Source: Flavobacterium sp. MDT1-60
GTDB lineage: Bacteria > Bacteroidota > Bacteroidia > Flavobacteriales > Flavobacteriaceae
Direction: 5' to 3'
Assembly (NCBI RefSeq): GCF_014844035.1
Contig: NZ_CP062159.1
Location: 620,001 to 684,000 of the forward strand
DNA length: 64,000 nt
In this document: piece after piece, positions 46,401 through 64,000 of the stretch
How the letters are laid out: each line of letters opens with the position of its first letter
Numbering within the stretch: the stretch's first letter is position 1
The notes under the pieces: model-generated
Database searches by the model: none
Seen by the model: the letters and a program-made list of their open reading frames with translations, nothing else
Told to the model about the DNA's origin: nothing
Position numbers and translations under genes: made by a program

Positions 46401-49400
46401 GGAGGAACAGGAGCTTACACTTATAGCTTTAACGGCACGGCCAACTTTACAAGTACTAATACTTATCCTACAAGTACTGCAGGACCAGTAACAGCTTATG
46501 TGAAAGACGCCAATGGATGTCAAGCAGGGCCATTTTCTATAACAATTGGTGTTTTACAACCAATAACAGCAATTAATTTAGTTGATAGCGGTTATGATTG
46601 TTCAACAACTCCTCAAGGAGGTCATGTTACAATTACAGCTGTAAAAGCAGGAAGCTTAGCAAATGTTTCTTATCAAATTATTGCAGGGCCTGCGGGTTAT
46701 AACACTGCTAGTAATACTACAGGAGATTTTAAACCATTAGCACCCGGACTTTATACTTTTCAAGCTACAGACAGTCAAACAGGTTGTTCTTTAACTATAA
46801 GTCATGATGTAAAAGGAACATCAGATATTGTAGCTGGAGGATCAATTACTACAACAATTAAATGTAATGCCGCAACAGGAAATATTCAGTTTACTGTTAG
46901 CGGAGCAAAAACTAGCGGATACGACTATGTTATTAAAAATGCTGGTGGAACAACTATTCAACAAGCGAATGGAGTTCCTGCAACGACAACTACTATAGCT
47001 GTAACTTCTGCAGTACCTGCTGGAGATTATACTATAACTGTTACCGACATATTAACAAAATGTAAAGATGACTACACTGTTAGTTTAACACAACCAGCTA
47101 ATGCCTTAGATGTTACAGCAACAGCTCCAAACATCAATTGTAATAATGGTAGTACTATTATTACCGCTGTTGGTGCAGGAGGAACAACAAGCTATTCTTA
47201 TGCTGTTGTAACTCAAGGGGCAACTGCTCCGACAACATTCCAACCAGATCCTAAAATGACTGTAAACACAGTTAATGGTACAGTTACAAAATGGGATGTT
47301 TATATTAAAGACGCGAACAATTGTACTGATTTCGTTACAATTGAAATTTTAAAAGATCAGGTACCAAGCGTTACAGCTACTTTAGACAATCAATGTACAG
47401 GTTCTGGAAATAAATTCAGAATTACTGCAACGGGTACTGGAGGTGTTGGTACTTTACAATATGGAATTAATGGTCCTACAGGAGCATTCTCTACAAGTAA
47501 TATATTTGATGTTACTGCAAGTGTAACTCCATATACTGTTTGGGTAAGAGATGCTAACTTATGTACAGCTTCGGCTACACCAATAACGGTTTACCCTCAA
47601 TTGACTGCAACTGCAGCCGTAAAAGAATTAGATTGTTCTACTAGTCCAAACGCAACGATTACGATTACTGCTAATGGAGGAAATGGTCCATATAAATATG
47701 AAGTTTCATCTAACGGAGGAACTACTTATACTTTAATGGCTTCTAATGTTTATACTGCTTTGACATCAGGTACTTATTTAATAAAAGTTACTGATGCGAA
47801 TACATGTACATTTGTTGTTACAACTCCAATTCTTTCTATTTCTAATCCAACCGTTAGCGTTGTCACACAGGTTGATGTAACTTGTAATGGAGCCGCAAAC
47901 GGTTCAGTGAAACTAAAAGGAGCCGGAGGTTCAGGAGGATATACTTATAGTAATAATGCAACAACAGGATTTGCGGCAGCAGATACTTTCACTGGATTAA
48001 CACCGGGAGCTCATACTTTCTATGTTAAAGACAGTAAAGGGTGTATCGGTAGTGTTGGTGTTACTATTGCACAGCCATCGACTCTAACCGCTACAGCAAG
48101 TGCTCCTGCATTTACTTGTAGTTCTACAAATACAAAACAATCAACTATTGTAACTATTGCGTTACCGACTACCGGAACAGCGCCATATGAATACAGTTTC
48201 AACGGAGGCGGTTATTCTCTAACAGTAAATACTTTAACAGTAAATGATAACGGAACAGACCAGGTGATTAACTATTCTGTTCGCGATAAGAATTTATGTG
48301 TGTTCAATGGTACAGTATCATTGGCAAAATTAAATCCTCCGGTAATTTCAAGTATTGTTCCTAGCGCCGTTACCTGTTTGCTTGTAACGAGCACAGTTCA
48401 GGTTAATGTAACAGGGGGAACAGGAGTTGGAACTTTGCAATACGAAACTATTGCACCATCTCCAATCATCAGAGCCAAACAAGCAGGAAATTCATTTGCG
48501 GGATTAACTCCTGGTGATTATGTATTTAGAGTTACTGATGCAAATGGTTGTTATGACACGAAATCTGTTACGGTTAAATCGGTTACTCCGATTGCGATTG
48601 CAGGAAATAAAAACAACGATGCAAAATGTAAAGGTACTTCAACAGGAAACGGAACATTTACAGTTTCAGGAAATGCTACAGTTGGAAACTATACATTTAC
48701 ATTAACAGCAGGTACTTTAGGAACAGGTACACTTACAAAATCAGGTAATACCTTAACATTGGCTAATGTTGCCGCTGGAACATATACAGTATCAGTAACT
48801 GATACCGCTACAGGTTGTAGCAATACGGCAAGTATTACTATCGGTGAGCCTGCTTTGGCTTTAGATGTTACGGCAACAGCTACGAACATCAACTGTAATA
48901 ATGACAATGCAGTGATTACGGTAGTTGGAACAGGCGGTACAACAAGCTACAAATATGCTGTTGTTAAGCAAGGAACTCCAACAGTTGCCCCTATAGCTTC
49001 AGATTACGGAACAAGCGATAAACTAACAGTTGATACTAACAGCGGAGCTGACATGAACTGGGTTGTTTATATAATGGACGCCAATGGATGTACAGATTCA
49101 GTTGTAAGATCAATTGCAGCAGATCCAATTCCAACAGTTACTGCGGTTTTAAGTAACCAATGTACAGCTTCTGGAAGCGGATTTACTATTACTGCAACAG
49201 GTTCAGGAGGTTTTGGTGCGTTGACTTACGGAATCAGTGGTCCTACAGGATCATTTACATCAAATAATGTTTTCAATGTTCCGGCTTCGACTACACCTTA
49301 TACAGTTTGGGTAAGAGATGCCAATATGTGTACAGCTTCAGCTACACCAATTACGGTTTACCCACAATTGACTGCAGTTGCAAATGTGACTAAGGAATTA

Positions 49401-52400
49401 GATTGTACAACATCTCCATCTGCACAAATCACGGTTGATATTGCAGGCGGAAAATCTGGATATACTTATAAAGTAGATTCAGGATCAGGTTATGGTTCAA
49501 GTGTTGCCGTTACAGGAACTCAGTTTGTTTATCCTGCGACAGCTTCGGGAACTTATAATTTTGAAATTTCAGATTCGAATACTCCGGGTTGTAAAGTAAT
49601 TGTTTCAGCAACAGTTGGGGCAATTACAAATCCAACAGTTACGGCCACTCAGGTTGATGTAACTTGTAACGGAGCCGCAAACGGTTCAGTAAAATTACAA
49701 GGAGCCGGAGGTTCAGGAGGATATACTTATAGTAATAATGCAACAACAGGATTTGCGGCAGCAAATACTTTCACTGGATTAACACCTGGAGCTCATACCT
49801 TCTATGTTAAAGACAGTAAAGGCTGTACAGGCAGCATTGGTGTTACTATCACTCAGCCTTCAGTATTAACTACTACAGCAAGTGCTCCGGCATTTACATG
49901 TAGTTCTACAAATGCTAAGGAATCTAAGGTTTTAACTATTGCGCCTCCAACAACAGGAACAGCGCCATACGAATATAGCTTCCAGGGTGGTGGATATTCA
50001 TCTACAAATACATTAACAGTAAGCGATACGGGAGTATCTCAGAATATTGCTTACTCTGTCAAAGATAAAAACGGATGTATTTTCAACGGATCAGTTACAC
50101 TTGCTCCGTTAAATCCTCCGGTAATTTCAAGTATTGTTCCTAGCGCCGTTACCTGTTTGCTTGTAACGAGCACAGTTCAGGTTAATGTAACAGGGGGAAC
50201 AGGAGTTGGAACTTTGCAATACGAAACTATTGCACCATCTCCAATCATCAGAGCCAAACAAGCAGGAAATTCATTTGCGGGATTAACTCCTGGTGATTAT
50301 GTATTTAGAGTTACTGATGCAAATGGTTGTTATGACACGAAATCTGTTACGGTTAAATCGGTTACTCCGATTGCGATTGCAGGAAATAAAAACAACGATG
50401 CAAAATGTAAAGGTACTTCAACAGGAAACGGAACATTTACAGTTTCAGGAAATGCTACAGTTGGAAACTATACATTTACATTAACAGCAGGTACTTTAGG
50501 AACAGGTACACTTACAAAATCAGGTAATACCTTAACATTGGCTAATGTTGCCGCTGGAACATATACAGTATCAGTAACTGATACCGCTACAGGTTGTAGC
50601 AATACGGCAAGTATTACTATCGGTGAGCCTGCTTTGGCTTTAGATGTTACGGCAACAGCTACGAACATCAACTGTAATAATGACAATGCAGTGATTACGG
50701 TAGTTGGAACAGGCGGTACAACAAGCTACAAATATGCTGTTGTTAAGCAAGGAACTCCAACAGTTGCCCCTATAGCTTCAGATTACGGAACAAGCGATAA
50801 ACTAACAGTTGATACTAACAGCGGAGCTGACATGAACTGGGTTGTTTATATAATGGACGCCAATGGATGTACAGATTCAGTTGTAAGATCAATTGCAGCA
50901 GATCCAATTCCAACAGTTACTGCGGTTTTAAGTAACCAATGTACAGCTTCTGGAAGCGGATTTACTATTACTGCAACAGGTTCAGGAGGTTTTGGTGCGT
51001 TGACTTACGGAATCAGTGGTCCTACAGGATCATTTACATCAAATAATGTTTTCAATGTTCCGGCTTCGACTACACCTTATACAGTTTGGGTAAGAGATGC
51101 CAATATGTGTACAGCTTCAGCTACACCAATTACGGTTTACCCACAATTGACTGCAGTTGCAAATGTGACTAAGGAATTAGATTGTACAACATCTCCATCT
51201 GCACAAATCACGGTTGATATTGCAGGCGGAAAATCTGGATATACTTATAAAGTAGATTCAGGATCAGGTTATGGTTCAAGTGTTGCCGTTACAGGAACTC
51301 AGTTTGTTTATCCTGCGACAGCTTCGGGAACTTATAATTTTGAAATTTCAGATTCGAATACTCCGGGTTGTAAAGTAATTGTTTCAGCAACAGTTGGGGC
51401 AATTACAAATCCAACAGTTACGGCCACTCAGGTTGATGTAACTTGTAACGGAGCCGCAAACGGTTCAGTAAAATTACAAGGAGCCGGAGGTTCAGGAGGA
51501 TATACTTATAGTAATAATGCAACAACAGGATTTGCGGCAGCAAATACTTTCACTGGATTAACACCTGGAGCTCATACCTTCTATGTTAAAGACAGTAAAG
51601 GCTGTACAGGCAGCATTGGTGTTACTATCACTCAGCCTTCAGTATTAACTACTACAGCAAGTGCTCCGGCATTTACATGTAGTTCTACAAATGCTAAGGA
51701 ATCTAAGGTTTTAACTATTGCGCCTCCAACAACAGGAACAGCGCCATACGAATATAGCTTCCAGGGTGGTGGATATTCATCTACAAATACATTAACAGTA
51801 AGCGATACGGGAGTATCTCAGAATATTGCTTACTCTGTCAAAGATAAAAACGGATGTATTTTCAACGGATCAGTTACACTTGCTCCGTTAAATCCTCCGG
51901 TAATTTCAAGTATTGTTCCTAGCGCCGTTACCTGTTTGCTTGTAACGAGCACAGTTCAGGTTAATGTAACAGGGGGAACAGGAGTTGGAACTTTGCAATA
52001 CGAAACTATTGCACCATCTCCAATCATCAGAGCCAAACAAGCAGGAAATTCATTTGCGGGATTAACTCCTGGTGATTATGTATTTAGAGTTACTGATGCA
52101 AATGGTTGTTATGACACGAAATCGGTTACTGTTAAACCAGTAGTAAAAATTGCAATTAACCCAAGTGTAACAAATCATGTTAATTGTTTTGGAAACAGTA
52201 CAGGTAATGCTGTGTTTACCATTTCTGGATTTACAGGAACATACAGTTATACTATAAATGGAGGAACTGCTGTTACAGCACAAACTTCCGGAGTAGTTAA
52301 CTTAACAAATCAACCTGCAGGAACTTATAATATTGCAGTTACGGACAACGTTACGGGTTGTACAGAAAATAGTTCTGTTACAATTCAACAGCCAGCGGCT

Positions 52401-55400
52401 GCATTGACGGCAAGTTATATTACAGTAAATGCAAATTGTAATGTAGGTACATCTAAAGTGACGGTAACGGCTGTAGGTGGAACACAATCGTACAAATATT
52501 CGTTTGTACAAAATAATGCGGGAATAGGAACGTTGACAACTTCAAATATTGCAAATTTAGATCCGACTGTTACTACGGATTGGGATGCTTATGTGGTAGA
52601 TGCTAACGGATGTCAGGTAAAACTTGATGTTACTATTGCAAAAGATAATACTCCAACAGTTTCAGCTACGGCTGTAAACCAATGTTTAGGAGTGGGAACT
52701 TATACCATAACTGCTGTAGGAGTAGGAAAAGCTCCATTGACTTATAGTATTAATAGCCCAACGTCTGGTTTTGATACGCCAAATACATTTGCAGTAACGG
52801 CTTCAGGTACCTATAATGTATGGGTAAAAGATGCTAATGGTTGTGTTGCTATGACTACGGTTCCGGTAATAGTAAATGATAAATTGACAATTTCAGCTCA
52901 ATTAACTAAGGACAACACTTGTTCTGGTACTACAGACGCTGTAATTACATTAAATGCTTCAGGCGGTTCAGGTTCTTATACTTACACATATACAAGTACA
53001 CCTGTTGCTGCGGGAACTTTTGCTGGAAACGTCTTTACAACAAGTGCAGCAGCAGACTTTATTTTTACGGTAACAGATACTAAAAATTGTACAGCTACAA
53101 CGACAGTTGCAGTAAAAACTACAGTGCCTGTTAATCCGGATGTTACAGTAACTCCTGGTACTTTAATTTCTTGTAATGGTGATTCTTCTGCTTCTTTAAA
53201 TGTTGTAGTTGACGCTACTAAAGGTTTAGCCCCATTTGTAATTAATGTTAATAACAATACCTTAGGAATTAATTATGGAACACAGACTTCAGGCTTAAGA
53301 GCCGGAGCATATACTGTTACAGTAACCGATGCAAAAGGATGTACAGATATAGAGAATATTTCTATTACAGAGCCAGGCGATCTGGTTGTTATTACAGATA
53401 AGACTGATATGCGTTGTGACGCAAGTACAGGTGGTGTATCGAAAGGTGAGATCATCATTCAATCTGTTACTGGTGGTACTGGACCTTACGATTACTATGT
53501 TACGGGAATTAATGGTTATGCAGGAGAAGCACATGGTATTCCTGGTACTACAGTTGTATTTGAAGTTGTAGATTTCGGTTTTTATCAAGTTAGAGTGGTT
53601 GATAGAAATGGATGTTCTAAATTTATAAAAGATGTTCTGATTGCTGCACCTGTAACAGGACTTGGAATTACAATTAATACTAGTGCAACTTGTGCTCCAA
53701 CAGGTGGTTCTGCTACAATTACTATTAATAGTGCATATGCAGGTACAGGACCATTCCATTTCAATATTTACAAAGGATCTACTCCTCCTCAGATATGGAC
53801 TATGGATGGAGTTGATGGATGGATAGGAGAGTCATCTCCTGGTCAGGCTGTTTATACTGGTTTGACACCTGGTGTAAAATATACTTTTATTGTTTACTCA
53901 GAAAATACAGGATGTTATTATTTCCAGGCCGCTCCGGATCCGATTCCAACAAACTCTAAGTTAGAAGTTGTTAGTGAAGTTGCCAGCAATATTACTTGTA
54001 AAAATGCGGCAAACGGAAGTGTAACTTTTGCAGTTAGAAATAATTATCCTACAACACCGGCTCCAGGTACTTCAGTAGATTTGCGTTATTCAGTTCGTGA
54101 GGCATTTACAAATGCTGAAATTATTGCACCTACAACCGTTACTGGTTTAGCAGCAGGTGCAACATCACCTAGTGTAACATTAAATCCACTTGCAGTTGGT
54201 ACTTATTATATATTAGTTGAAGAAATTGCAGGTCCTTTTGCTGGTTGTTCAGTAGTTTCTGATAGCTTTACAATAAATGAATCCGTTGCACTATTAGATC
54301 TTACGGCTTCTGCGACTTCAATTGCAGACTGTACGAACTTAGCGACAATTTCTGCTCAGGCAAAAGATGGAACAGGACCTTATAGTTATATGGTATTGCC
54401 AGCTGGTACAACTACTCCTCAGGCAACTGATGCCGGATGGGTTCCTGGTAATACATTTACAAGAGCGGGAAGTGTTGCCGGAATCACTTATGATGTCTAT
54501 GCAAAAGATGACTATGGATGTATCAAATTTGTGCCGGTTACGGTTTACAAATATGAAGAGCCAACAATTGCTGCACCAGCAACAATTTGTTATACAGGTA
54601 CTCCATTTACTTTTACTATAGGCGGTACAGTGGACGGGACTATCATTGGAGGTGCAACTTATAGTGTTGATGGAAGTACATTCCAAACATCACCAAGTTT
54701 TACATTTAATACGCCTAAAATTTATAATTTAGTAATTAAAGATGGAAAAGGTTGTACAAAAACTACTACTTTCGAAGTAAAACCGCAATTACTATTAGAT
54801 GTTAAATTAACAAGAGAACTAAGTTGTATTGTTGGTAGCGATGCTGCACAATTTACGCTTACACCAAAAGACGGTTACGGTACTTATACTTATTCTTATA
54901 CTTTAAATGGTGGAGCAGTAACTCCAACAGGAACCGTACTTACAACAAGCGCTATAGGAACTTATATTTTTACAGTAAGAGATGCTCAGAATTGTACAGC
55001 AACTTATACTATTAAATTAGATCCGATTCCGGCAATTGCATTTACTCCAACGGCAACAAATTTAAGTTGTTTTGCGAGTGCAGACGGAACAATCAATGTT
55101 GATGTTACAGCAGGAGTAGGTCCTTATGAATATCAACTTGAAAGAGGTGCAACTATGGTTACAGCGTTCCAGCCATTAAATAAATTTACAGGATTAATTG
55201 CTGCAAATAATTATGTAGTTACTGTAAGAGATGCTAAAAAATGTATCCTTACAGCGCCAGTTACAATTACGCAGCCGGCAATTTTGGCAGCGACATCATC
55301 AATTACAACACCATTATTGTGTACTGCAGGAAATACACCTTCACAAGCAGTTGTAACAATTGTTCCAACAGGAGGAACAACTCCTTACTTATATAGTTAT

Positions 55401-58400
55401 GACTTAGGAATTAATTACATTACTGATGACACTTACGAGACAACAGTTGGTAAAACTTTTGATGTTTATGTAAAAGATAAGAACGGTTGTATTTTCACTT
55501 TAACCAATGGTGTTGATGTACCGGCTTTAGTACCTCCGACAGATTTGACAATTGTAACTTCAATTGCCGATACATGTCTGGCAGATGCTACGGTTGAGAT
55601 TACAAATCATGTAGGTGGAACAGGAACTATTCAATACGAGATTTTATCTCCAATTGTAAGAGCAAAACAAACGTCTACAACATTTGCAAACCTGGCTCCT
55701 GGTACTTATGTATTCCAGATTACAGATGGAAACGGATGTACTTATTCAGAGTCACATACAGTGGTTCCGGTAACTAACATTACGGTATCTGCTGCAGTGA
55801 TTGCGAATGTTTCTTGCAACGGTGGTTCTAACGGATCATTGAAATTTACAGTAGCAAACAATACAGGAGCATTTACTGCTGTATTGACTGCAGGAACAGG
55901 AACGCTTACAACAGCAGGAAATGTAGTTACGGCTTCAGGTTTAGTGGCAGGAAACTATACATTAGAGGTTACAGATACAGCCACAGGCTGTACCAATACT
56001 GCTTCTATTGTAGTTACAGAACCTACTGCGTTAGCATTGGCATTAGCTAGTAATGTAAACGCAAATTGTGATTTTGGTGCTAAAGTAAGTGTAACAGCTT
56101 CAGGCGGAACTGCTCCTTATGAGTACTCATTTGTACCGGCAAGTGCTGCAGGACCTGGAACTTATACAGCTTCAAACGAAGCCGAATTAAACCCAGCAAC
56201 TACTACAAACTGGAAAGTTTATGTGAGAGATGCTAACAACTGTGTTATCGGTACACCGCTTGCAATTCCAATTGAAAGAGATGTTGATCCAACTATTACG
56301 GCTCCTGCCTTAATTTGTTTTACAGGAACTCCGGTTACCGTTACGGTTACAGGAACTCCGGATCCAGATGTTGTGCCAGCTGCGACTTACAGTGTAAACG
56401 GTGGTGCTTTCCAGGCTTCACGTGACTTTACAATTAGTGCTCCGGGAACTTATGTGTTTAGAATTAAGGACGGAAACGGATGTATTGCATCAGTTTCTTA
56501 CGAAGTAAAACCACAATTGACTTTACAGGCTAATTTAGTTCAGGATTTAACCTGTGCTTTAGATGCTGATATCACTTTGGTTCCAAGTGGAGGAACAGGA
56601 ACTTACACGAAGTATGAAGTTTATGACGGAACAACTTACACGACTATCCTTACTCCTGCATACAAACCTACTGTTGACGGAACATACAGTTTCAGAGTAA
56701 CAGATTCACAAAATTGTGAGGCGGTATCAAATGTTATCGTGGTAACTCCTAAAACAACTCCAACAGCAGCATTCACTCAGGTTAATGTAAGTTGTTTTGG
56801 AGGAAATACCGGAAGTTTTGTATTGACTCCTGCTGACGGAATTGCTCCTTATACTTATAGTGTAAATGGTGCTGGTTTCGTAACAGGAAATACTTTCAGT
56901 AATTTAACTCAGGGAGTTTATAATGTTATCGTTAAAGATGCTAAGCAATGTGTATCTACTGTTCCTATAACAATTACAATTACAGAGCCTTCAGCATTAT
57001 CAGCTACCTCATCAATTACTACAGCTTTAGTATGTACTGCAGGAAATGCACCATCACAAGCAGTTGTAACGGTTGTTGGTGCAGGCGGAACAACTCCATA
57101 TGAATATAGTTTTGATGGAACAAATTATTCATCAGACAATACATTTGAAACATTTGCAGGAGTTACGATGACTGTTTATGTAAAAGATAAAAACGGTTGT
57201 ACTTTCACGTTGACTAATGGTGTTAATGTACCTGCATTGGTACCTCCGACAGACTTGACAATTGTAACTTCAATTGCTGATACTTGTCTGGCAGATGCTA
57301 CGGTTGAGATTACAAATCATGTAGGTGGAACAGGAACTCTTCAATATGAGATTTTATCTCCAATTGTAAGAGTGAAACAAACGTCTACAACATTTGCAAA
57401 CCTGGCTCCAGATACTTATGTATTCCAGATTACAGATGGAAACGGATGTACGTATTCAGAGTCTCATACAGTGACTCCGGTAACTAATATTACAGTATCT
57501 GCTGCAGTGATTGCGAATGTTTCTTGCAACGGTGGTTCTAACGGATCATTGAAATTTACAGTGGCAAACAATACAGGAGCATTTACTGCTGTATTGACTG
57601 CAGGAACAGGAACGCTTTCAACAACAGGAAATGTAGTTACGGCTTCAGGTTTAGTGGCAGGAAACTATACATTACAAGTTACCGATACAGCTACAGGCTG
57701 TCCAAGTACTGCTTCTATCGCAGTTACAGAACCTGCTGCGTTAGCATTGGCATTAGCTAGTAATGTAAATGCAAATTGTGATTTTGGTGCTAAAGTAAGT
57801 GTAACAGCTTCAGGTGGAACTGCTCCTTATGAGTACTCATTTGTACCGGCAAGTGCTGCAGGACCTGGAACTTATACAGCTTCAAACGAAGCCGAATTAA
57901 ACCCAGCAACCACTACAAGCTGGAAAGTTTATGTGAGAGATGCTAACAACTGTGTTATCGGTACACCGCTTGCAATCCCAATTGAAAGAGATGTTGATCC
58001 AACCATTACAGCTCCGGCCTTAATTTGTTTTACAGGAACTCCGGTTACCGTTACGGTTACAGGAACTCCGGATCCAGATGTTGTGCCAGCTGCGACTTAC
58101 AGTGTAAACGGTGGTGCTTTCCAGGCTTCACGTGACTTTACAATTAGTGCTCCGGGAACTTATGTGTTTAGAATTAAGGACGGAAACGGATGTATTGCAT
58201 CAGTTTCTTACGAAGTAAAACCACAATTGACTTTACAGGCTAATTTAGTTCAGGATTTAACCTGTGCTTTAGATGCTGATATCACTTTGGTTCCAAGTGG
58301 AGGAACAGGAACTTACACGAAGTATGAAGTTTATGACGGAACAACTTACACGACTATCCTTACTCCTGCATACAAACCTACTGTTGACGGAACATACAGT

Positions 58401-61400
58401 TTCAGAGTAACAGATTCACAAAATTGTGAGGCGGTATCAAATGTTATCGTGGTAACTCCTAAAACAACTCCAACAGCAGCATTCACTCAGGTTAATGTAA
58501 GTTGTTTTGGAGGAAATAATGGAAGTTTCGTATTGACTCCGGCAGGCGGAATTGCTCCTTACACGTATAATGTAAACGGTGCTGGTTTCGTAACAGGAAA
58601 TACTTTCAGTAATTTAACTCAGGGAGTTTATAATGTTATCGTTAAAGATGCTAAGCAATGTGTATCTCTTCCAATAACTGTAACAATTACACAGCCTTCA
58701 GCATTATCAGCAACATCATCAATTACAACACCATTATTGTGTACTGCAGGAAATGCGCCATCACAAGCAGTTGTAACGGTTGTTGGTGCAGGCGGAACAA
58801 CTCCATACGAATATAGTTTTGATGGAACAAATTATTCATCAGACAATACATTTGAAACCTACGCAGGAGTTACGATGACTGCCTATGTAAAAGATAAAAA
58901 CGGTTGTATTTTCACTTTGACTAATGGTGTTAATGTACCTGCTTTGGTACCTCCGACAGATTTGACAATTGTAACTTCAGTTGCTGATACCTGTCTGGCA
59001 GATGCTACAGTTGAGATTACAGCTCATGCAGGTGGAACAAACCCAGTACAATACGAGATTTTATCTCCAATTGTAAGAGTGAAACAAACGTCTACAACAT
59101 TTGCAAACCTGGCTCCGGGTACTTATGTATTCCAAATTACAGATGGAAACGGATGTACTTATTCAGAGTCACATACAGTGGTTCCGGTAACTAACATTAC
59201 GGTTTCAGGTTCATTGGTTAAAAATGTGTCTTGTAACGGTGGTGTCGATGGTTCGATCAAATTCAAAGTAGAAAACAAAGCTGGTGGATATACTGCTACT
59301 TTAAGCCCTAATGTAGGTACGCTTACTCAGGTTGCAGATGTAGTTACGATTACGAATCTACCTGCAGGACCGTATACACTTAATGTTGTGGATGCTATTA
59401 CAGGTTGTGTTAATTCAGCAGATGTAAAAGTGGAGCAGCCTGCTGCTTTAGGCCTTTCAGTTGTATCTAAGACAGCAGCAAATTGCTACTTCGGTGCGAT
59501 TGTTACTGTAAAAGCAGTTGGTGGAAGTCCAGTTTATAAGTACGCTTTTGTTGCATCTGGAACAACTCCAATTGCATCAGATTATAGTACTGATGACACA
59601 GCAATTTTAGATCCTGCTACACCAAATTGGGATGTTTATGTAATGGATGCAAATTTGATTTGTTCTGCTATGATTACTGTTCCAATTACAAAAGATGATG
59701 CACCAACAATTAATGTAAATGCAAATGTATATTGCTATACTGGTGGTCCGGTTCCAATTACTATTTCTGGAACTACTGATGGAGATATAGTTAATCCACC
59801 AATGTACAGTATTGGAAATGGTTATTATCTAAGTCCAAACTTTACATTAAATGCACCAGGATCTTACGAATTCTTTATTAAAGATGGTAATGGTTGTGTA
59901 GCAAAAGCAACTTATGTATTGAGACAAGAATTGTTGATAGATGCAACTCTTACACAAGATTTGAATTGTACAACAAGCACTGCAACAATTACATTGACCG
60001 CTTCGCAGGGAACAGGCGCAGGAACATATTCTTTCGAATACGACCTTAATAATAGTGGAACTTTTAATGCTGTTACAGCTTTACCATTTGTGACATCTAC
60101 TCCGGGTACATATACTTTCAGAGTAAAAGATGCCCAATGTTCAACAATTTCTGTACCTGTTGTAGTCACACCAAAAACAGACCCAACGTTTACAGTTGCT
60201 ACTGTTAACGCTCGTTGTAAAGGAGACTCAAACGGAAGTATCACAGTAACAGCTAAAGATGGAGTTGCTCCATATGAATACAGTATGACTGATGGAACAA
60301 CGACATGGCCATATCAAGCTTCTAATCTTTTCACAGGATTAAAAGCAGGTACATATACAATAACTGTTCAGGATGCTAAAAAATGCGTATCGGTAGCAGC
60401 TGCTCCGGTTGCAATTACAGAACCAACTGTTTTAACAGTGACTCATGTGATTTCACCATTTGGTTGTGATCCTTCAAATACAGCAAAAGATGCAGTAGTT
60501 ACATTAACGGCTCATGATGGCACAGGACCATACAGTTACAGTTTTGACAACGGTGTGACTTTTGGAACTTCTCCAACACATACTATGAATACTGCAACTA
60601 CTGTAAGTTATGTTATAGTTGATATTAATGGCTGTAGAGCTACAGGAACTGCAAATGTTCCGGTATACAATCCGCCAACGCATTTCGATCTTAGCGCTAC
60701 GCCAATTTATTGTAATAATGTGGCTGGAACTGCAACAGTAACGGTATCAAATATTACTGGAGGTGAAGCAGGATACACTTATGCTATTATTGAGCCAATT
60801 GCTTCAGCTACTTCAAACACAGTAGGAAGTTTTGCTAATCTATTGCCAGCAACATATGTAATAAAAGTTACGGATGCTAATGGTTGTAGCACATTAAATT
60901 CAATTGATGTTAAAAAAGCAAGTGAAGTAAGTGTTGATGCTCAATTGTTAAGTGATGTTGCTTGTAACGGAGGAACAACAGGTTCGATTGCCTTTACAGT
61001 AAGTAATTATATTACTCCGGCTAATTATACATTTGCATTGTCTCCTAATAACGGAACATTTACTAAAACAGGTGATGTTGTGACTTACACAGGATTAACT
61101 GCTGCGAATTATACATTCACAGTTACTGATAATACTTCAGGTTGTACAGATAATGTTGCTAACTTCTTAGTTAATCAACCAGCTGCAGCTCTGAACTTTA
61201 CAATGACTGCTACTAATATTACTTGTAACGAGAAAAATGCTACTATTACAGTAACTGCTACAGGCGGAACTCCTGCTTACAGCTACGCTGCTGTAGTTAG
61301 TGGAGCAGTAGCTCCAACAACGTTCAGTACTGATAATAAAATAGTAGTAGATACAAACAACGGAACAAGATTAGCTTGGGATGTTTATGTGAAAGATTTT

Positions 61401-64000
61401 AATGGATGTACTACGTTAGTAAAAACTCAAAACATTTTAACTGATGCACTTCCAAGTGCTGTAACTGCAAATGTTACCAGCCAATGTCCGAATGCGACAG
61501 GAACTTATGAGATTGTAGTGTCAGCAACTGGTAAAGCTCCATTAGAGTATAGTATAGGAACTGGTTTCCAATCTAGCCCTAGCTTCCAGGTGAATTCATC
61601 CGGATCTTACGATGTTACCGTAAAAGATGGTAACGGATGTACAGTTACTGTAACAGGTGCTGTTGTAATCGATGGCGCTCTTGATTTACAATTAGACATT
61701 CAGGCATTACCAAGTTGTGATGCTCCTGATGGTAGAATTGTTGCAAAAGCTACTGGAGGTTCAGGAAATTACAGATATAGCTCAGGTGCTTATGTTCCGG
61801 TAACTGGTGCTACAGCTACATTCAACAATGTTTCAGCTGGTTCTCATACAGTTGTAGTTACAGATTTAACTACAGGATGTAGAGACACAGTGATTGTTGA
61901 ATTGTCAGAAGCTACTAAGATTACTGGTTTAGCTTTAAACAAAACAGATGTAACATGTAATGGAGGTTCTAATGGTAGAATCATCGTTAACCTGGCTCCA
62001 AATGCACCTGGTGTAAATGATAATCCAATTTACAGATATACTTTAACAGGTACAGCTATTGGTAACGTACCCGTTAGCGTAGGTCCTCAGGATAGTAATG
62101 TATTTGATAATTTATTACCGGGAGATTATACAGTTAGAGTAACTTCAGGAAGAGGTTGTAATGCTCAGGTAGATACCAGAATTACACAACCAACTCCAAT
62201 TGTAGTTAATGCACCAACAATTACACCTTTCGGATGTACTGCAGGTACAAATACTACAAGCTTTGCAAGTATTACAGTTAATTCTGTAACTGGAGGAACA
62301 AATCCTTACGTTCTATATGTGTTCAGTAAAAACGGAACTGTTGTTCAAAGCAGCGCTTCTAATGTTTACAACGAAACTGATCTTGCTGGAGGTTCTTACT
62401 CAGTAAAAGTATTTGACAGTAAAGGTTGTGAAGGTTCTTCTACAGCTCCAATTGTAATTGCACCGTTCATTACTATGAATGATATCAATGTTACTGTAGT
62501 AACTCCAATAACTTGTATCAATAATGAAACTATTCAGGTGTCTGTTGCTACAACTGGAGGAACTCCAACAGCTTTAGTTTATACACTTACTGGTACAAAC
62601 GGAACTGTTTTCAATCAAACAAACCCAACTGGATTATTCTCAGGATTAGCTATAGGAAATTATGCAATTACTGTGTTTAACCCAACAACGGGATGTACAA
62701 TAAAAGATTTCCACTACATATTCGACCCTAATACTTTCGCTATCGAAGTAGCACAAGTTAAAGGCGAAGTTTGTTATGGAGATGCTGATGGAAGCATAGA
62801 CTTGACGTTTGTTGACAATCAATTGAATCCAACAAATGATGCAGGAGCATTTACGTATACTATTACAGGTCCGGTACCAAGTTCTGGAACTTCAGCAACA
62901 GCTGGTCCAGTTAGAATCTCAGGTTTAAGAGCTGGTCAGTATTCAGTTACAGCTAAGTTGGTTAATAGACCGGAATGTACGGTTACGAATGTGTTCACCA
63001 TTAATCAGCCAACAGCTCCATTATTGGTTACTAAATCTCAATCTGAAATTACTTGTATTACAGGTAACAATGACGGTGTGATTTCTGCATCTGCTACAGG
63101 CGGATGGGGTACAAATTACCAATATGAATTAGTTGGTCCGGTAAATGTTGCTTACTCTGATAAATATGAATTTACTGGTTTAACTGCCGGAAGCTATACG
63201 ATCAATGTGAAAGATGAGAAAGGATGTATTGCAACAACAACTGCTCAATTAGTTGTTCCGACACCAATCGTGATTACTGCGACTGCAAACGCTTCAATGT
63301 TATCATGTTTTGGAGATAAAAACGGTATCATCACTGTAGCTCAGCCAACAGGTGGTCAGGGAAGTAATTATATGTATACTTTAAATATCGTTTCTGCGAC
63401 ACCGGTTATCGTGTCAGGTCCTCAGGCTGGCAGAGTGTTTACAGGCTTAAGCGCTGGAACCTATACAATAACAGTTACTGACGGATTTGCCTGTACAGCG
63501 ACTTCTGCAACTGTCGTGATAAGCGAACCTACAGAAGTGAAACCAACATTAGATGTGTCAAGAACTCAAACTTGTCTGACGTTATCACAAATTACGTTAG
63601 GTGCAACAGGCGGAACAGCTCCTTATACTTATAGTACAAGCGCTAATTTTGCAACGGTTATTGGATCATTTGCTTCTTCTGTATCATTTGATGTTCCGGT
63701 AGGTAAATATCAATACTACGTAAAAGACGCTAATGGTTGTGTTGGATTTGTTTCTAATGAGATTAAAATTGATCCATTAGTACCACTATCACTTGATTTA
63801 GATGTAACCAATGCGGTTGTAAAATGTCAAGGTGAGTCAACAGGAGTTATTGTTGCTGATGCCGTGGGTGGTTTAGGAAACTATAGTTATACATTACTAA
63901 ACGGTGCTGGTACAGCTATCCTTCCTGCTCAGGCTGAAGGTAGATTCGAGAATCTTGCAATAGGTACTTATAGAGTAAAAGTAGATAGTGGAGATTGTAC
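40470..64000 (+). CDS. sprB: Giant SprB-type cell-surface gliding adhesin, 3' end outside the window
   Basis: The frame stays open from the ATG at 40470 to the last base (at least 7843 codons); no stop was met where I checked. Residues 1-70 form an unusually long leader with a hydrophobic core (HYAMLVLFLFLSFTS) and VNAQ; an inner ATG at 40596 would give a normal 29-residue signal peptide. A head region (to about residue 640) includes KKIVYAGLYWSAIYPYE and GGWSLVVIYESP, then a DUF11-like domain (LTKQVFDANGADASLKDVTL). From about residue 900 on it is SprB repeats of about 80-90 residues, each with two Cys (xxCNGxxxG and DxNGC). In F. johnsoniae SprB is a 6497-residue filament moved along the cell surface by the gliding motor and secreted by the type IX system with SprF. 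A partner sprF gene would lie beyond the window. Confidence 0.93.
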   Translation, partial: MKKPTIFKSVKTVITFGSNLGSYAKGQLEDLKRNFSDFDLEKMATLNRKKVSHYAMLVLFLFLSFTSVNAQIGKAFAPRLTGGNIKVKGDVVLIGNTVINKVDTAPTFRNGTPQTGVAFTGTVRNLATLTAEANTPFNADGDNNDYNVEYINVEPGTDVFSSSKAELKINNSCKKIVYAGLYWSAIYPYERSTDSGKKYDGSLRPLDSWKTVKLKVPGGTYQDLTADEVIFDGYNYTNVQNSFKDSPYVCYKNVTTTLQGLANADGVYAVANVRAALGKRDGGGAGGWSLVVIYESPTMPSKFISVFDGYVGVNPDAGAVTQVDYKVTGFQTLPAPFPVNAKIGVGALEGDNLKTGDNLQFKADKSSAWTVIYDNVNPVGNFFNATVSDNGSHYLSRTPNSTNTMGFDIDHVIIQNPPSSSGALNSVVPNDEKGATLRLTTSSDGYGAFLSTFAVEIIEPTVLLTKQVFDANGADASLKDVTLGEQLNYVIGFENQGNDDAKEFVIKDILPKNINFNFPGDITSLPAGMTVANDVTYDAATRTLLFKIPDALVKKNLIPGPPFVRSLIRFSVKVVPTCNELSDACDPIIQNSAYATYKGDINKTQITDDPSLSSYTSCNLGTPQSTNFLVGVKDCKFTQNVVLCSASQVIKASDGYASYSWTGPGNFTATGQSVTVTQPGLYKVAGIGNKPCTDYVEEITVVPFGGIATNPVIAYASQVVQCTSNGKLLPNIFLCGANDYKDIPTGINDSSVIIWEKLNESSCTASTSQNCANEGTSCTWTKVGEGPDYRADQSGQFRLTLNYTGGCFNRFYFNVYKNVFNPTETHKDIMCGKAGSITVGGGSAQYQYAIAEQTANPVPGAYQSSPVFPITGTGWGAGVTQKTYIIFIKQVGVNTNPCIFNIKDIVIRKRAFSMTATASQPLCYGDLGKVLIVANDADPQYTFNIYRRTPKLLINTSGKITPNQYLYDQLAAGNYTVEVITDDGCTATQDITINSVSQLTLTPSLSPALTACQDGAIKLTIGGGTSPYYYSVNGADYILHTTTSTIPVTFATLPAGGIYNIIVSDANGCKVTNSITVTANPKPEYTISTTDIKCYSDKGEIKINVTAQNGYTLEYSINNGASWSTNPTFSNLAGGTYNVVVRYTLSGNTCTDPVQVKVIASPTSELTASGGVAELAGCTLAGLGGKLRITNVTGGTAPYQYSFDGGSTWQASPEKDVLNGSYTLVVKDNLGCTFIIPYTVKLDPKPADPTIDIAPVVYNCDGTGKTSATVTNTGGTNYTYEYYLDGVANTPITNNVFNNIVSGPHKIVVKYNLVAAATYSNLLKEDFGRGLPTTSPGIASAYCFNDQRVNSPYQCGTRSVEDNQYSVASFFWRNDTSWYPFKDHTSNGTVADGRYLLVNIGDAAGDYGILYSKPIADVIPNQPVKVDLAVANLLNAGKTGAAPIVRFELVNPLGVVVARVDTGKIAEASNDPNRTKWINIPTISLNPGPNTNLTFVIRSGSLEYNGNDLLIDDISVYQLPKSCLSSREFDFEVGTDKAFTVLEPTIQNVACNGGNTGSITITAQNFNGSFQYSINGGAWKTSTVSPVTEGGLIAGDYTVTVRSDATGTCSKSFSKTIGAGSPVTVTASVTTPQTCSAKATITAVASGGTSPYKYELRAANGTTVLVPFQDLAVFPNIAKGSYTVVAKDINNCPSGASTVVIVNDPTAPTASLAATSDLCFDSDKATIVVTATGTGTLSYSLDGAPGVTNNTFTNVGVGTHTVVVTDSNSCTATVANIVVATEIKATPQITKTLDCNTTGATIKVDITGGKAAFTYKVKEGSNLYGSSIPVTGNTFNYAAPGAGFYTFEISDSNSPTSCKVEITATVDALTNPTVNATPVQVACNGGSTGEVTLSASGGSLSYTYSFNNSGFTNTVKYTGLKAGIAYPYQVMDSKGCKSAIGSITLTEPSVVGGTISATQIKCSATGTTPAVVTIVGSGGTGAYTYSFNGTANFTSTNTYPTSTAGPVTAYVKDANGCQAGPFSITIGVLQPITAINLVDSGYDCSTTPQGGHVTITAVKAGSLANVSYQIIAGPAGYNTASNTTGDFKPLAPGLYTFQATDSQTGCSLTISHDVKGTSDIVAGGSITTTIKCNAATGNIQFTVSGAKTSGYDYVIKNAGGTTIQQANGVPATTTTIAVTSAVPAGDYTITVTDILTKCKDDYTVSLTQPANALDVTATAPNINCNNGSTIITAVGAGGTTSYSYAVVTQGATAPTTFQPDPKMTVNTVNGTVTKWDVYIKDANNCTDFVTIEILKDQVPSVTATLDNQCTGSGNKFRITATGTGGVGTLQYGINGPTGAFSTSNIFDVTASVTPYTVWVRDANLCTASATPITVYPQLTATAAVKELDCSTSPNATITITANGGNGPYKYEVSSNGGTTYTLMASNVYTALTSGTYLIKVTDANTCTFVVTTPILSISNPTVSVVTQVDVTCNGAANGSVKLKGAGGSGGYTYSNNATTGFAAADTFTGLTPGAHTFYVKDSKGCIGSVGVTIAQPSTLTATASAPAFTCSSTNTKQSTIVTIALPTTGTAPYEYSFNGGGYSLTVNTLTVNDNGTDQVINYSVRDKNLCVFNGTVSLAKLNPPVISSIVPSAVTCLLVTSTVQVNVTGGTGVGTLQYETIAPSPIIRAKQAGNSFAGLTPGDYVFRVTDANGCYDTKSVTVKSVTPIAIAGNKNNDAKCKGTSTGNGTFTVSGNATVGNYTFTLTAGTLGTGTLTKSGNTLTLANVAAGTYTVSVTDTATGCSNTASITIGEPALALDVTATATNINCNNDNAVITVVGTGGTTSYKYAVVKQGTPTVAPIASDYGTSDKLTVDTNSGADMNWVVYIMDANGCTDSVVRSIAADPIPTVTAVLSNQCTASGSGFTITATGSGGFGALTYGISGPTGSFTSNNVFNVPASTTPYTVWVRDANMCTASATPITVYPQLTAVANVTKELDCTTSPSAQITVDIAGGKSGYTYKVDSGSGYGSSVAVTGTQFVYPATASGTYNFEISDSNTPGCKVIVSATVGAITNPTVTATQVDVTCNGAANGSVKLQGAGGSGGYTYSNNATTGFAAANTFTGLTPGAHTFYVKDSKGCTGSIGVTITQPSVLTTTASAPAFTCSSTNAKESKVLTIAPPTTGTAPYEYSFQGGGYSSTNTLTVSDTGVSQNIAYSVKDKNGCIFNGSVTLAPLNPPVISSIVPSAVTCLLVTSTVQVNVTGGTGVGTLQYETIAPSPIIRAKQAGNSFAGLTPGDYVFRVTDANGCYDTKSVTVKSVTPIAIAGNKNNDAKCKGTSTGNGTFTVSGNATVGNYTFTLTAGTLGTGTLTKSGNTLTLANVAAGTYTVSVTDTATGCSNTASITIGEPALALDVTATATNINCNNDNAVITVVGTGGTTSYKYAVVKQGTPTVAPIASDYGTSDKLTVDTNSGADMNWVVYIMDANGCTDSVVRSIAADPIPTVTAVLSNQCTASGSGFTITATGSGGFGALTYGISGPTGSFTSNNVFNVPASTTPYTVWVRDANMCTASATPITVYPQLTAVANVTKELDCTTSPSAQITVDIAGGKSGYTYKVDSGSGYGSSVAVTGTQFVYPATASGTYNFEISDSNTPGCKVIVSATVGAITNPTVTATQVDVTCNGAANGSVKLQGAGGSGGYTYSNNATTGFAAANTFTGLTPGAHTFYVKDSKGCTGSIGVTITQPSVLTTTASAPAFTCSSTNAKESKVLTIAPPTTGTAPYEYSFQGGGYSSTNTLTVSDTGVSQNIAYSVKDKNGCIFNGSVTLAPLNPPVISSIVPSAVTCLLVTSTVQVNVTGGTGVGTLQYETIAPSPIIRAKQAGNSFAGLTPGDYVFRVTDANGCYDTKSVTVKPVVKIAINPSVTNHVNCFGNSTGNAVFTISGFTGTYSYTINGGTAVTAQTSGVVNLTNQPAGTYNIAVTDNVTGCTENSSVTIQQPAAALTASYITVNANCNVGTSKVTVTAVGGTQSYKYSFVQNNAGIGTLTTSNIANLDPTVTTDWDAYVVDANGCQVKLDVTIAKDNTPTVSATAVNQCLGVGTYTITAVGVGKAPLTYSINSPTSGFDTPNTFAVTASGTYNVWVKDANGCVAMTTVPVIVNDKLTISAQLTKDNTCSGTTDAVITLNASGGSGSYTYTYTSTPVAAGTFAGNVFTTSAAADFIFTVTDTKNCTATTTVAVKTTVPVNPDVTVTPGTLISCNGDSSASLNVVVDATKGLAPFVINVNNNTLGINYGTQTSGLRAGAYTVTVTDAKGCTDIENISITEPGDLVVITDKTDMRCDASTGGVSKGEIIIQSVTGGTGPYDYYVTGINGYAGEAHGIPGTTVVFEVVDFGFYQVRVVDRNGCSKFIKDVLIAAPVTGLGITINTSATCAPTGGSATITINSAYAGTGPFHFNIYKGSTPPQIWTMDGVDGWIGESSPGQAVYTGLTPGVKYTFIVYSENTGCYYFQAAPDPIPTNSKLEVVSEVASNITCKNAANGSVTFAVRNNYPTTPAPGTSVDLRYSVREAFTNAEIIAPTTVTGLAAGATSPSVTLNPLAVGTYYILVEEIAGPFAGCSVVSDSFTINESVALLDLTASATSIADCTNLATISAQAKDGTGPYSYMVLPAGTTTPQATDAGWVPGNTFTRAGSVAGITYDVYAKDDYGCIKFVPVTVYKYEEPTIAAPATICYTGTPFTFTIGGTVDGTIIGGATYSVDGSTFQTSPSFTFNTPKIYNLVIKDGKGCTKTTTFEVKPQLLLDVKLTRELSCIVGSDAAQFTLTPKDGYGTYTYSYTLNGGAVTPTGTVLTTSAIGTYIFTVRDAQNCTATYTIKLDPIPAIAFTPTATNLSCFASADGTINVDVTAGVGPYEYQLERGATMVTAFQPLNKFTGLIAANNYVVTVRDAKKCILTAPVTITQPAILAATSSITTPLLCTAGNTPSQAVVTIVPTGGTTPYLYSYDLGINYITDDTYETTVGKTFDVYVKDKNGCIFTLTNGVDVPALVPPTDLTIVTSIADTCLADATVEITNHVGGTGTIQYEILSPIVRAKQTSTTFANLAPGTYVFQITDGNGCTYSESHTVVPVTNITVSAAVIANVSCNGGSNGSLKFTVANNTGAFTAVLTAGTGTLTTAGNVVTASGLVAGNYTLEVTDTATGCTNTASIVVTEPTALALALASNVNANCDFGAKVSVTASGGTAPYEYSFVPASAAGPGTYTASNEAELNPATTTNWKVYVRDANNCVIGTPLAIPIERDVDPTITAPALICFTGTPVTVTVTGTPDPDVVPAATYSVNGGAFQASRDFTISAPGTYVFRIKDGNGCIASVSYEVKPQLTLQANLVQDLTCALDADITLVPSGGTGTYTKYEVYDGTTYTTILTPAYKPTVDGTYSFRVTDSQNCEAVSNVIVVTPKTTPTAAFTQVNVSCFGGNTGSFVLTPADGIAPYTYSVNGAGFVTGNTFSNLTQGVYNVIVKDAKQCVSTVPITITITEPSALSATSSITTALVCTAGNAPSQAVVTVVGAGGTTPYEYSFDGTNYSSDNTFETFAGVTMTVYVKDKNGCTFTLTNGVNVPALVPPTDLTIVTSIADTCLADATVEITNHVGGTGTLQYEILSPIVRVKQTSTTFANLAPDTYVFQITDGNGCTYSESHTVTPVTNITVSAAVIANVSCNGGSNGSLKFTVANNTGAFTAVLTAGTGTLSTTGNVVTASGLVAGNYTLQVTDTATGCPSTASIAVTEPAALALALASNVNANCDFGAKVSVTASGGTAPYEYSFVPASAAGPGTYTASNEAELNPATTTSWKVYVRDANNCVIGTPLAIPIERDVDPTITAPALICFTGTPVTVTVTGTPDPDVVPAATYSVNGGAFQASRDFTISAPGTYVFRIKDGNGCIASVSYEVKPQLTLQANLVQDLTCALDADITLVPSGGTGTYTKYEVYDGTTYTTILTPAYKPTVDGTYSFRVTDSQNCEAVSNVIVVTPKTTPTAAFTQVNVSCFGGNNGSFVLTPAGGIAPYTYNVNGAGFVTGNTFSNLTQGVYNVIVKDAKQCVSLPITVTITQPSALSATSSITTPLLCTAGNAPSQAVVTVVGAGGTTPYEYSFDGTNYSSDNTFETYAGVTMTAYVKDKNGCIFTLTNGVNVPALVPPTDLTIVTSVADTCLADATVEITAHAGGTNPVQYEILSPIVRVKQTSTTFANLAPGTYVFQITDGNGCTYSESHTVVPVTNITVSGSLVKNVSCNGGVDGSIKFKVENKAGGYTATLSPNVGTLTQVADVVTITNLPAGPYTLNVVDAITGCVNSADVKVEQPAALGLSVVSKTAANCYFGAIVTVKAVGGSPVYKYAFVASGTTPIASDYSTDDTAILDPATPNWDVYVMDANLICSAMITVPITKDDAPTINVNANVYCYTGGPVPITISGTTDGDIVNPPMYSIGNGYYLSPNFTLNAPGSYEFFIKDGNGCVAKATYVLRQELLIDATLTQDLNCTTSTATITLTASQGTGAGTYSFEYDLNNSGTFNAVTALPFVTSTPGTYTFRVKDAQCSTISVPVVVTPKTDPTFTVATVNARCKGDSNGSITVTAKDGVAPYEYSMTDGTTTWPYQASNLFTGLKAGTYTITVQDAKKCVSVAAAPVAITEPTVLTVTHVISPFGCDPSNTAKDAVVTLTAHDGTGPYSYSFDNGVTFGTSPTHTMNTATTVSYVIVDINGCRATGTANVPVYNPPTHFDLSATPIYCNNVAGTATVTVSNITGGEAGYTYAIIEPIASATSNTVGSFANLLPATYVIKVTDANGCSTLNSIDVKKASEVSVDAQLLSDVACNGGTTGSIAFTVSNYITPANYTFALSPNNGTFTKTGDVVTYTGLTAANYTFTVTDNTSGCTDNVANFLVNQPAAALNFTMTATNITCNEKNATITVTATGGTPAYSYAAVVSGAVAPTTFSTDNKIVVDTNNGTRLAWDVYVKDFNGCTTLVKTQNILTDALPSAVTANVTSQCPNATGTYEIVVSATGKAPLEYSIGTGFQSSPSFQVNSSGSYDVTVKDGNGCTVTVTGAVVIDGALDLQLDIQALPSCDAPDGRIVAKATGGSGNYRYSSGAYVPVTGATATFNNVSAGSHTVVVTDLTTGCRDTVIVELSEATKITGLALNKTDVTCNGGSNGRIIVNLAPNAPGVNDNPIYRYTLTGTAIGNVPVSVGPQDSNVFDNLLPGDYTVRVTSGRGCNAQVDTRITQPTPIVVNAPTITPFGCTAGTNTTSFASITVNSVTGGTNPYVLYVFSKNGTVVQSSASNVYNETDLAGGSYSVKVFDSKGCEGSSTAPIVIAPFITMNDINVTVVTPITCINNETIQVSVATTGGTPTALVYTLTGTNGTVFNQTNPTGLFSGLAIGNYAITVFNPTTGCTIKDFHYIFDPNTFAIEVAQVKGEVCYGDADGSIDLTFVDNQLNPTNDAGAFTYTITGPVPSSGTSATAGPVRISGLRAGQYSVTAKLVNRPECTVTNVFTINQPTAPLLVTKSQSEITCITGNNDGVISASATGGWGTNYQYELVGPVNVAYSDKYEFTGLTAGSYTINVKDEKGCIATTTAQLVVPTPIVITATANASMLSCFGDKNGIITVAQPTGGQGSNYMYTLNIVSATPVIVSGPQAGRVFTGLSAGTYTITVTDGFACTATSATVVISEPTEVKPTLDVSRTQTCLTLSQITLGATGGTAPYTYSTSANFATVIGSFASSVSFDVPVGKYQYYVKDANGCVGFVSNEIKIDPLVPLSLDLDVTNAVVKCQGESTGVIVADAVGGLGNYSYTLLNGAGTAILPAQAEGRFENLAIGTYRVKVDSGDC
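48330..50108 (+). repeat. 1779-bp exact tandem repeat in sprB, copy 1
   Basis: The unit of 593 codons begins TTAAATCCTCCGGTAATTTC. Read in full, it encodes seven SprB domains with 14 Cys. All bases that I compared with copy 2 are identical. Confidence 0.95.
50109..51887 (+). repeat. 1779-bp exact tandem repeat in sprB, copy 2
   Basis: It repeats copy 1 at a distance of exactly 1779 bases, keeping the reading frame. Confidence 0.95.
51888..52123 (+). repeat. Partial third copy of the sprB tandem repeat
   Basis: The first 236 bases match copies 1 and 2 and then diverge abruptly inside a codon for the SprB linker (ACGAAATC then GGTTACT instead of TGTTACG). The duplicated region is therefore 3794 bases long. 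Confidence 0.92.
55531..57240 (+). repeat. 1.71-kb near-identical super-repeat in sprB, copy 1
   Basis: The unit begins TACCTCCGACAGATTTGACA and is followed by a second copy 1710 bases on (570 codons). Differences are scattered single bases. Confidence 0.9.
57241..58947 (+). repeat. 1.71-kb near-identical super-repeat in sprB, copy 2
   Basis: It is 1707 bases long to the next start, one codon shorter. About 56311-56806 looks identical to 58021-58516, while flanking stretches differ by scattered changes. Confidence 0.9.
58948..59210 (+). repeat. Partial third copy of the 1.71-kb super-repeat
   Basis: It keeps close similarity through TACCTCCGACAGATTTGAC..GGTTCCGGTAACTAAC, then falls to the level of the other SprB repeats. 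Confidence 0.8.

Follow-up and report, generated by a model that had tools for sequence, protein, structure and literature searches.

Equal arms and paired seven-domain steps suggest that the gliding adhesin SprB folds back into a two-stranded ladder

The domains of the giant gliding adhesin SprB recur in a fixed order of seven and are divided into two arms of equal number about a conserved middle. Our analysis of the sprB gene in a 64,000-nucleotide stretch of the Flavobacterium sp. MDT1-60 genome (hereafter the window; positions 620001-684000 of a single 5.56-Mb contig) and of its relatives shows further that the two arms change length in lockstep, that added blocks tend to lie at facing positions and that domains of the two arms covary in an antiparallel sense. 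We consider it highly probable that the SprB chain folds back near its middle into an antiparallel two-stranded ladder, with its tip outward, that lengthens by seven rungs at a time. Physical pairing of the arms, the outward tip, an N-terminus at the base and a twist as the cause of the number seven are what we infer from these patterns.

The sprB reading frame is open to the end of the window and stops at 64215-64217, giving a product of 7915 aa. About 350 aa before the end of the protein, at about 64190-64217 (L006:1190-1218) and thus just beyond the window, the frame changes, and a 357-codon downstream frame carries the end of the split domain, three further domains and the type B sorting domain (TIGR04131, Bac_Flav_CTERM, 1e-25, 89 bits; PF13585, 59 bits). 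Unlike the split copy of this assembly, sprB copies are intact in relatives, and the frame change is either a true break or an assembly error. We left the split unmended and counted the two pieces apart, giving 82 + 3 = 85 domains of about 84 aa each. A PorP/SprF gene lies directly downstream (L006:2215-3285, TIGR03519, 244 bits) and would, by position, encode the cognate shuttle of the sprB product. Upstream, two genes that we take from their position to be sprC and sprD form an operon-like run with sprB (Table 1). In its SprB repeats, type B sorting domain, downstream PorP/SprF gene and upstream sprC/sprD-like genes the locus resembles that of F. johnsoniae SprB (PF13573, TIGR04131), the difference being the 85 domains, counted piecewise, of the window copy. 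The same genome has three more large open frames (2107, 2384 and 1865 aa; G000:C1:323973-329276, 3123049-3127371 and 407443-407868) with stretches resembling a SprB block.

Table 1. Features of the sprB locus, in window coordinates. Offsets are counted from the middle domain of the array.
Feature	Coordinates	Strand	Description
sprC-like gene	34471..35943	+	490 aa, Ig_7 match
sprD-like gene	35945..40339	+	1464 aa, N-terminal PorP/SprF-family domain
sprB	40470..64000	+	putative giant gliding adhesin, T9SS substrate of type B; 7843 codons lie inside the window
N-terminal region preceding the domain array	40470..42902	+	DUF11-type repeat match, residues 477-516
N-arm to proposed apex	42903..53621	+	domains -42 to -3
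Insert following array domain 6	44433..45068	+	about 200 aa; no Pfam match at E 0.01
Near-identical copies at 7-domain lag, N-arm	47838..52136	+	47838-50357 vs 49623-52136, 96.0% DNA identity
Domains -2 and -1	53622..54236	+	long domains; proposed hairpin apex / filament tip
Middle domain	54237..54542	+	offset 0, 43rd of 85; site of the fifth marker box
C-arm	54543..64000	+	domains +1 to +38; the window ends inside +38
Near-identical copies at 7-domain lag, C-arm	55258..59243	+	55258-57536 vs 56971-59243, 92.4% DNA identity

A search with the SprB repeat profile, which the earlier note had proposed, matches the sprB product (PF13573, E 3e-57, 190 bits), with eight stretches passing E 0.001 within its first 5000 aa. 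A home-made profile built from the protein itself resolves a long array of SprB repeats, with 81 domains between residues 905 and 7908 and a weaker match ahead of them that brings the count to 82. The domains abut except at the one insert of about 200 aa, and the last is truncated by the end of the frame: the frame change splits domain +39, which begins at 64008 and whose end lies with the three additional domains in the downstream piece. Most relatives have an insert like that of the window protein and some do not; one database relative (P0145) is named MAM domain-containing, possibly for a part other than this insert.

The period of 570-640 residues on which the earlier note had staked its seven-domain super-repeat is present. 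Compared with itself at offsets of 20-2999, the protein has its identity peak at 593 residues (16.6%; mean 8.0%, sd 0.4) and the next at 570. Domains seven apart share a mean pairwise identity of 0.52; the mean falls to 0.42 at lag 14, 0.38 at lag 21 and 0.37 at lag 28 and is 0.29-0.31 at the remaining lags from 1 to 29. Together, these comparisons rule out chance or a frame artefact as the source of the period. For 82% of the 82 domains the most similar partner in the array stands at a lag divisible by seven, in agreement with the constant domain order between blocks that had been expected. Exceptions include domains 38 and 40 of the 81-domain count, which lie in a divergent central block (53118-54272) that has domains of up to 109 aa and contains the long marker spacing of 1908 bases. 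The super-repeat thus stands as a recurrence at every seventh domain, though its register covers about domains 9-71 of the 81-domain count and excludes the ends.

The nine marker boxes from which this super-repeat was first read are all found in the frame of the open reading frame starting at 40470; eight begin with W and the fifth reads YDVYAKDDYGC. That their spacings are multiples of three is true and trivial, being automatic within one frame. All nine belong to one domain class (domains 15, 22, 29, 36, 43, 50, 57, 64 and 71), at offsets -28, -21 and so on through 0 to +28 relative to the array middle. Two Cys per domain, as reported before, occur in 79 of 81 domains (69 of 82 under alternative boundaries, which push some Cys into the neighbouring domain).

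Each arm also contains near-identical DNA stretches at a seven-domain lag (Table 1) that arose through recent duplication or homogenisation. Such blocks (96% and 92% identity) are in keeping with an ordinary higher-order repeat, in which unequal recombination shifts seven domains at a time, the number seven has no structural meaning and SprB is an extended chain; the peak of lag-7 similarity in the longest proteins points the same way. We regard this explanation as unlikely, for reasons that emerge from the comparison of sprB genes between genomes.

To compare arm lengths, the N-terminal 810 aa was sought in 150 and then in 396 genomes of the genus, with matches in 45 genomes at E 1e-60 and in at least 187 at 1e-40. 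From these, 83 genes besides that of the window, a subset of all matches, were picked for apparent completeness and spread of length. Among the 77 complete genes, 68 fit a total of 2 x 7k + 1 domains (29, 43, 57, 71, 85 or 99); 26 genes have 57 domains and 13 have 43. Totals that would fill in a series stepping by seven (36, 50, 64, 78 and 92) are absent from the 77; 64 was later encountered in database proteins with 35 N-arm and 28 C-arm domains (35/28). A conserved, longer domain triplet marks the middle of the array, where domains -2 and -1 are the longest on average and where the centre occurs in more than one sequence type. Trained solely on the 26 genes with 57 domains, a profile of domains -2 and -1 locates the SprB middle at other arm lengths too.

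Equal arms are found in 67 of the 77 complete genus genes (41 of 51 without the training genes) and recur in every further set. Among the best 80 of 230 matches in species-representative genomes, some of which overlap the genus set, all 50 named loci whose array is complete at both ends have equal arms, as do, among the matches listed, 86 of the 100 complete proteins in a set of 120 from the database and 61 of the 70 complete in 77 further ones. These gene and protein sets overlap; pooled, with the training genes included, and clustered at 97% core identity, they give 268 clusters of complete proteins, of which 243 have equal arms when scored by their representative, at least three of them being clusters that mix 35/35 and 35/28 and yet score as equal. 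The equal values seen are 11/11, 14/14, 21/21, 28/28, 35/35, 42/42 and 49/49. Arms of 11/11 occur in Jejuia, Hyunsoonleella, Mariniflexile and metagenome-assembled Winogradskyella and Algibacter, and in these proteins no heptad is visible by domain-lag similarity. A structural meaning of seven is plausible; the 11/11 proteins of other genera show equal arms without the heptad. Recombination alone leaves equal arms of 11 and 14 domains unaccounted for.

The 25 unequal clusters comprise nine with C-arm extras, five of 27/21, two of 35/28, one of 22/35 and eight that are off by one. Parsing errors are possible for the last eight, where a first domain may have been missed or added; the C-arm extras are real domains. 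In the nine clusters that carry them, the N-arm has 14 or 21 domains and the C-arm 3 to 48 additional ones, a multiple of three in seven cases (12, 15, 27, 42, 48, 3 and 15) and not in the other two (13 and 25). Those present in the first tree belong to a single clade, which has 11 rows, including three partial ones. The extra stretch sits toward the C-terminal end, ahead of the last domain (G319, G130, G224 and G033 compared with the 14/14 gene of G345), which in a hairpin would be where a single-stranded base lies. Some repetition at lag 3 is seen in this group (L017/L018 of G130, L063 of G343, L079 of G319 and L070 of G224). The 35/28 proteins are candidates for recent one-arm losses or for collapsed assemblies. 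They stand alone in two clusters, and three times they share a cluster with 35/35 proteins at 97% core identity or more (P0013/P0021/P0022, P0014/P0026 and P0019/P0029), so that changes of a single arm do occur, as recombination would have it. Among the matches listed, six proteins with lengths of 6419-6438 aa are built of 64 domains arranged 35/28, and it is our guess that the 6497-aa F. johnsoniae SprB could belong to this class, three blocks shorter than the window protein. The 27/21 proteins, from Arenibacter where named, and the one 22/35 protein are a real difficulty for the hairpin.

Changes in arm length are frequent and mostly matched. On a tree of the 268, the number of domains changes at least 61 times in the N-arm and at least 65 times in the C-arm, while the equal or unequal state changes 10 times. 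On a tree of 207, we obtained 46 independent differences (pairs joined by disjoint paths that differ in an arm), and in 36 of these the difference is the same in both arms: 7/7 in 28 pairs, 14/14 in four, 3/3 in three and 10/10 in one. Shuffles yield a mean of 10.2 matched differences and a maximum of 20 in 10,000. The remaining ten pairs involve the group with C-arm extras (five), a 35/28 protein (two), an Arenibacter protein (one) and off-by-one counts (two). Equal arms that change together, the pattern expected of a folded-back chain, are thus what most clusters and most independent differences show, with exceptions. Growth in whole seven-domain blocks, an earlier proposal, is supported with an amendment: gains and losses are mostly paired, one per half and at facing positions, and for this reason the total usually steps by 14, giving the series of totals above.

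The placement of the added blocks was examined as the best block position per arm in the 28 independent 7/7 pairs and in two pairs chosen by hand; the 14/14, 3/3 and 10/10 differences were left out. Positions in the N-arm and C-arm are correlated (Spearman 0.72, n = 28, within-arm permutation P 0.0005), both within arms of 21 (0.63, n = 16) and within arms of 28 (0.96, n = 7). The N-arm position exceeds the C-arm position by a median of 4, and this offset lies between 3 and 5 in 16 of the 28 pairs, compared with 9.2 in within-arm shuffles (P 0.0012). The offsets scatter: with the hand-chosen pairs included, 17 of 30 lie in this range and two are negative, one of the latter being the hand-added comparison of the window protein with that of G409 (35/35), which differ by one extra seven-domain block per arm. 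Unequal recombination may well be the mutational source of such block changes, but by itself it gives no reason for an equal gain in the other half, tending to the facing position.

A third line of evidence comes from covariation between the arms. We took the per-domain pairwise divergence of genes, removed the gene-wide divergence and compared the residuals between domain positions. The residuals of domain i in the N-arm (-5 and further out) correlate with those of domain j in the C-arm on the line i+j = -4/-3, that is, in antiparallel fashion, in four of the five arm sets, with a peak mean r of 0.31 for 14/14 (35 genes), 0.32 for 21/21 (64 genes), 0.35 for 28/28 (95 genes) and 0.26 for 35/35 (27 genes). 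This ridge is about as strong as the correlation between chain neighbours (0.31-0.44). In the fifth set (11/11, 15 genes) there is no ridge, and chain neighbours hardly correlate there either (0.075). A circular shift of the C-arm, presumably by one, scores slightly better than the true register in the 14/14 (0.370 vs 0.334) and 35/35 (0.269 vs 0.266) sets. Within four clades of constant arm number the statistic is higher than in shuffles of domain order, with P values of below 0.0005, below 0.0005, 0.039 and 0.001, all optimistic because such permutations take no account of autocorrelation. Of these clades, the 21/21 clade and one of the two 14/14 clades have a sharp ridge, the 28/28 clade has a broad one and the second 14/14 clade a weak one. 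Since the ridge appears inside these clades, length changes alone do not create it, and recombination alone leaves it unaccounted for. Judged by its centre, the turn falls on domain -2 or on the junction of domains -2 and -1, and an offset of 4 is common to the ridge and the insertion positions. Column covariation over domains -8 to +8 at all arm lengths was set aside, as it mixes non-orthologous positions; when arms of 21 or more are used, it is confounded at the apex by differing tip sequence types.

The width of the ridge bears on whether the arms need to be paired at all. Symmetry could also arise if both ends were held at the cell with an open loop between them, or if conserved ends enclosed a variable middle, the domains of the two arms not touching in either case. 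This would cover the equal arms and part of the covariation, chiefly the broad ridges of the 28/28 and 35/35 sets and of one clade, and a centre with more than one sequence type is compatible with it. However, the ridges of the 14/14 and 21/21 sets decay within two to three domains, just as correlation does along the chain, and facing insertion sites at a typical offset of 4 are unexpected for an open loop. We consider symmetry without contact quite unlikely.

The simplest cause of the equal arms, the facing gains and the antiparallel covariation is a fold-back at the middle with paired halves. With paired strands, any change of length would have to add or remove an equal number of rungs at matching heights in the two arms. 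The chain would turn once, at domains -2/-1, with the N-arm and C-arm antiparallel and side by side. This would bring domain -5 next to +1, -6 next to +2 and so forth down the ladder; extrapolation of the register to the turn would bring -3 next to -1 and -4 next to 0. SprB is a type B substrate with SprF as its carrier, according to the accessible text of PMC12635249, so that its C-terminus should be at the membrane; under a fold-back the N-terminus would be there too and the middle would form the tip. The apex would then point outward as the natural site of surface contact, and at the base the N-terminal region would come close to the C-terminal type B sorting domain held by the shuttle SprF. 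The last three or four domains of the C-arm would be without partners and form the base, which would be enlarged in the one group with C-arm extras. Seven domains may be the repeat that returns the twist of the ladder to the same face, in which case paired seven-domain blocks would be accepted and others rarely.

GhpA, the grappling hook protein of Aureispira, is a T9SS substrate described as a heptamer. Like SprB it is giant and built of Ig-like domains, and it provides the best sequence and fold match of the SprB centre (PDB 9flp, 9flw, 9fly and others; profile E 4e-37); it differs in forming assemblies, with 56 chains in 8 entries, a mean of seven per entry. Among the Foldseek matches listed for the central region the nearest solved structures are GhpA fragments; the global fit is poor throughout (rmsd at least 9 angstrom in the 50 matches listed). 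A single-sequence search with one block at E 0.01 gave no match among solved structures. The match to GhpA would agree with a multi-chain bundle, and pairing between two molecules in an antiparallel dimer would be expected to leave the same covariation as a hairpin. Nevertheless, a parallel bundle leaves the equal arms without a reason, and an antiparallel dimer would have its C-terminal anchors at opposite ends even though SprF carries SprB in one membrane; we judge either arrangement very unlikely. A heptamer as the origin of the number seven was likewise rejected, as it offers no link to equal arms.

Structure prediction and filament length were also considered. AlphaFold2 models of 13 central domains (pTM 0.55, pLDDT 82) and of 13 N-arm domains (pTM 0.32, pLDDT 83) differ chiefly in pTM, though part of this difference may reflect alignment depth (67 vs 27 rows). 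The central value indicates a predicted common arrangement of the domains, without telling which arrangement. At a rise of about 4 nm per domain, a SprB of about 64 domains would measure about 260 nm in single file and about half of that if folded back. A fold-back would therefore account for a SprB of about 6,500 aa as a filament of about 150 nm, the values given in the accessible text of a 2026 review (PMC13104615); that of PMC4094633 likewise has about 150 nm.

Several known systems share parts of this design. Titin has super-repeats of 7 and 11 domains and nebulin of 7 modules, and both resemble SprB in that ordered classes of similar domains are repeated as a longer unit; they differ in being single-file rulers along another filament, without mirrored halves. 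The SMC/Rad50 proteins form an antiparallel intramolecular fold-back with discrete arm lengths, and in both systems a chain folded at a hinge must keep its two arms equally long, although the rungs of SprB are beta domains of about 84 residues instead of coiled-coil residues and we claim no homology. SMC arms measure 49 nm from head to hinge (PMC5526789, accessible text). Extending this likeness, we lean towards the view that the gliding adhesins of Bacteroidota are two-stranded ladders formed within one molecule and correspond to SMC/Rad50 at the scale of domains: seven Ig-like domains per arm would take the place of the seven residues of a coiled coil, and filament length would evolve seven rungs at a time.

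In bacterial gliding SprB is the component at the surface, and the way in which its roughly 6,500 residues are arranged is undescribed in the accessible parts of the literature covered. In the same literature (including PMC9870892, PMC12635249, PMC13104615 and PMC4094633) the heptad order, the equal arms and the hairpin are not described for SprB; preprints and most subscription papers lay outside this scope, so the novelty of the equal arms and the hairpin is not certain. If true, the ladder places the tip, the base and both ends of SprB, offers an explanation of its length of about 150 nm, serves as a sequence-only length ruler across species and makes the transfer of force from the moving track to the surface testable. 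Equal arms maintained through dozens of length changes would then be an unusually clean case of a fold governing the expansion of a repeat gene.

Two further observations concern the arrays themselves. Domains separated by 3 or 4 positions modulo 7 are slightly more alike, a pattern resembling the 3-4 spacing of coiled-coil heptads. This excess is found in 158 of 159 equal-arm genes with arms of at least 21 and in 27 of 30 with shorter arms; it fits a 3-4 rhythm but may stem from two alike classes copied with each block. Finally, one genome (G266) carries two adjacent sprB-like genes, L072 and L095, with 21/21 and 28/28 domains, each with equal arms.
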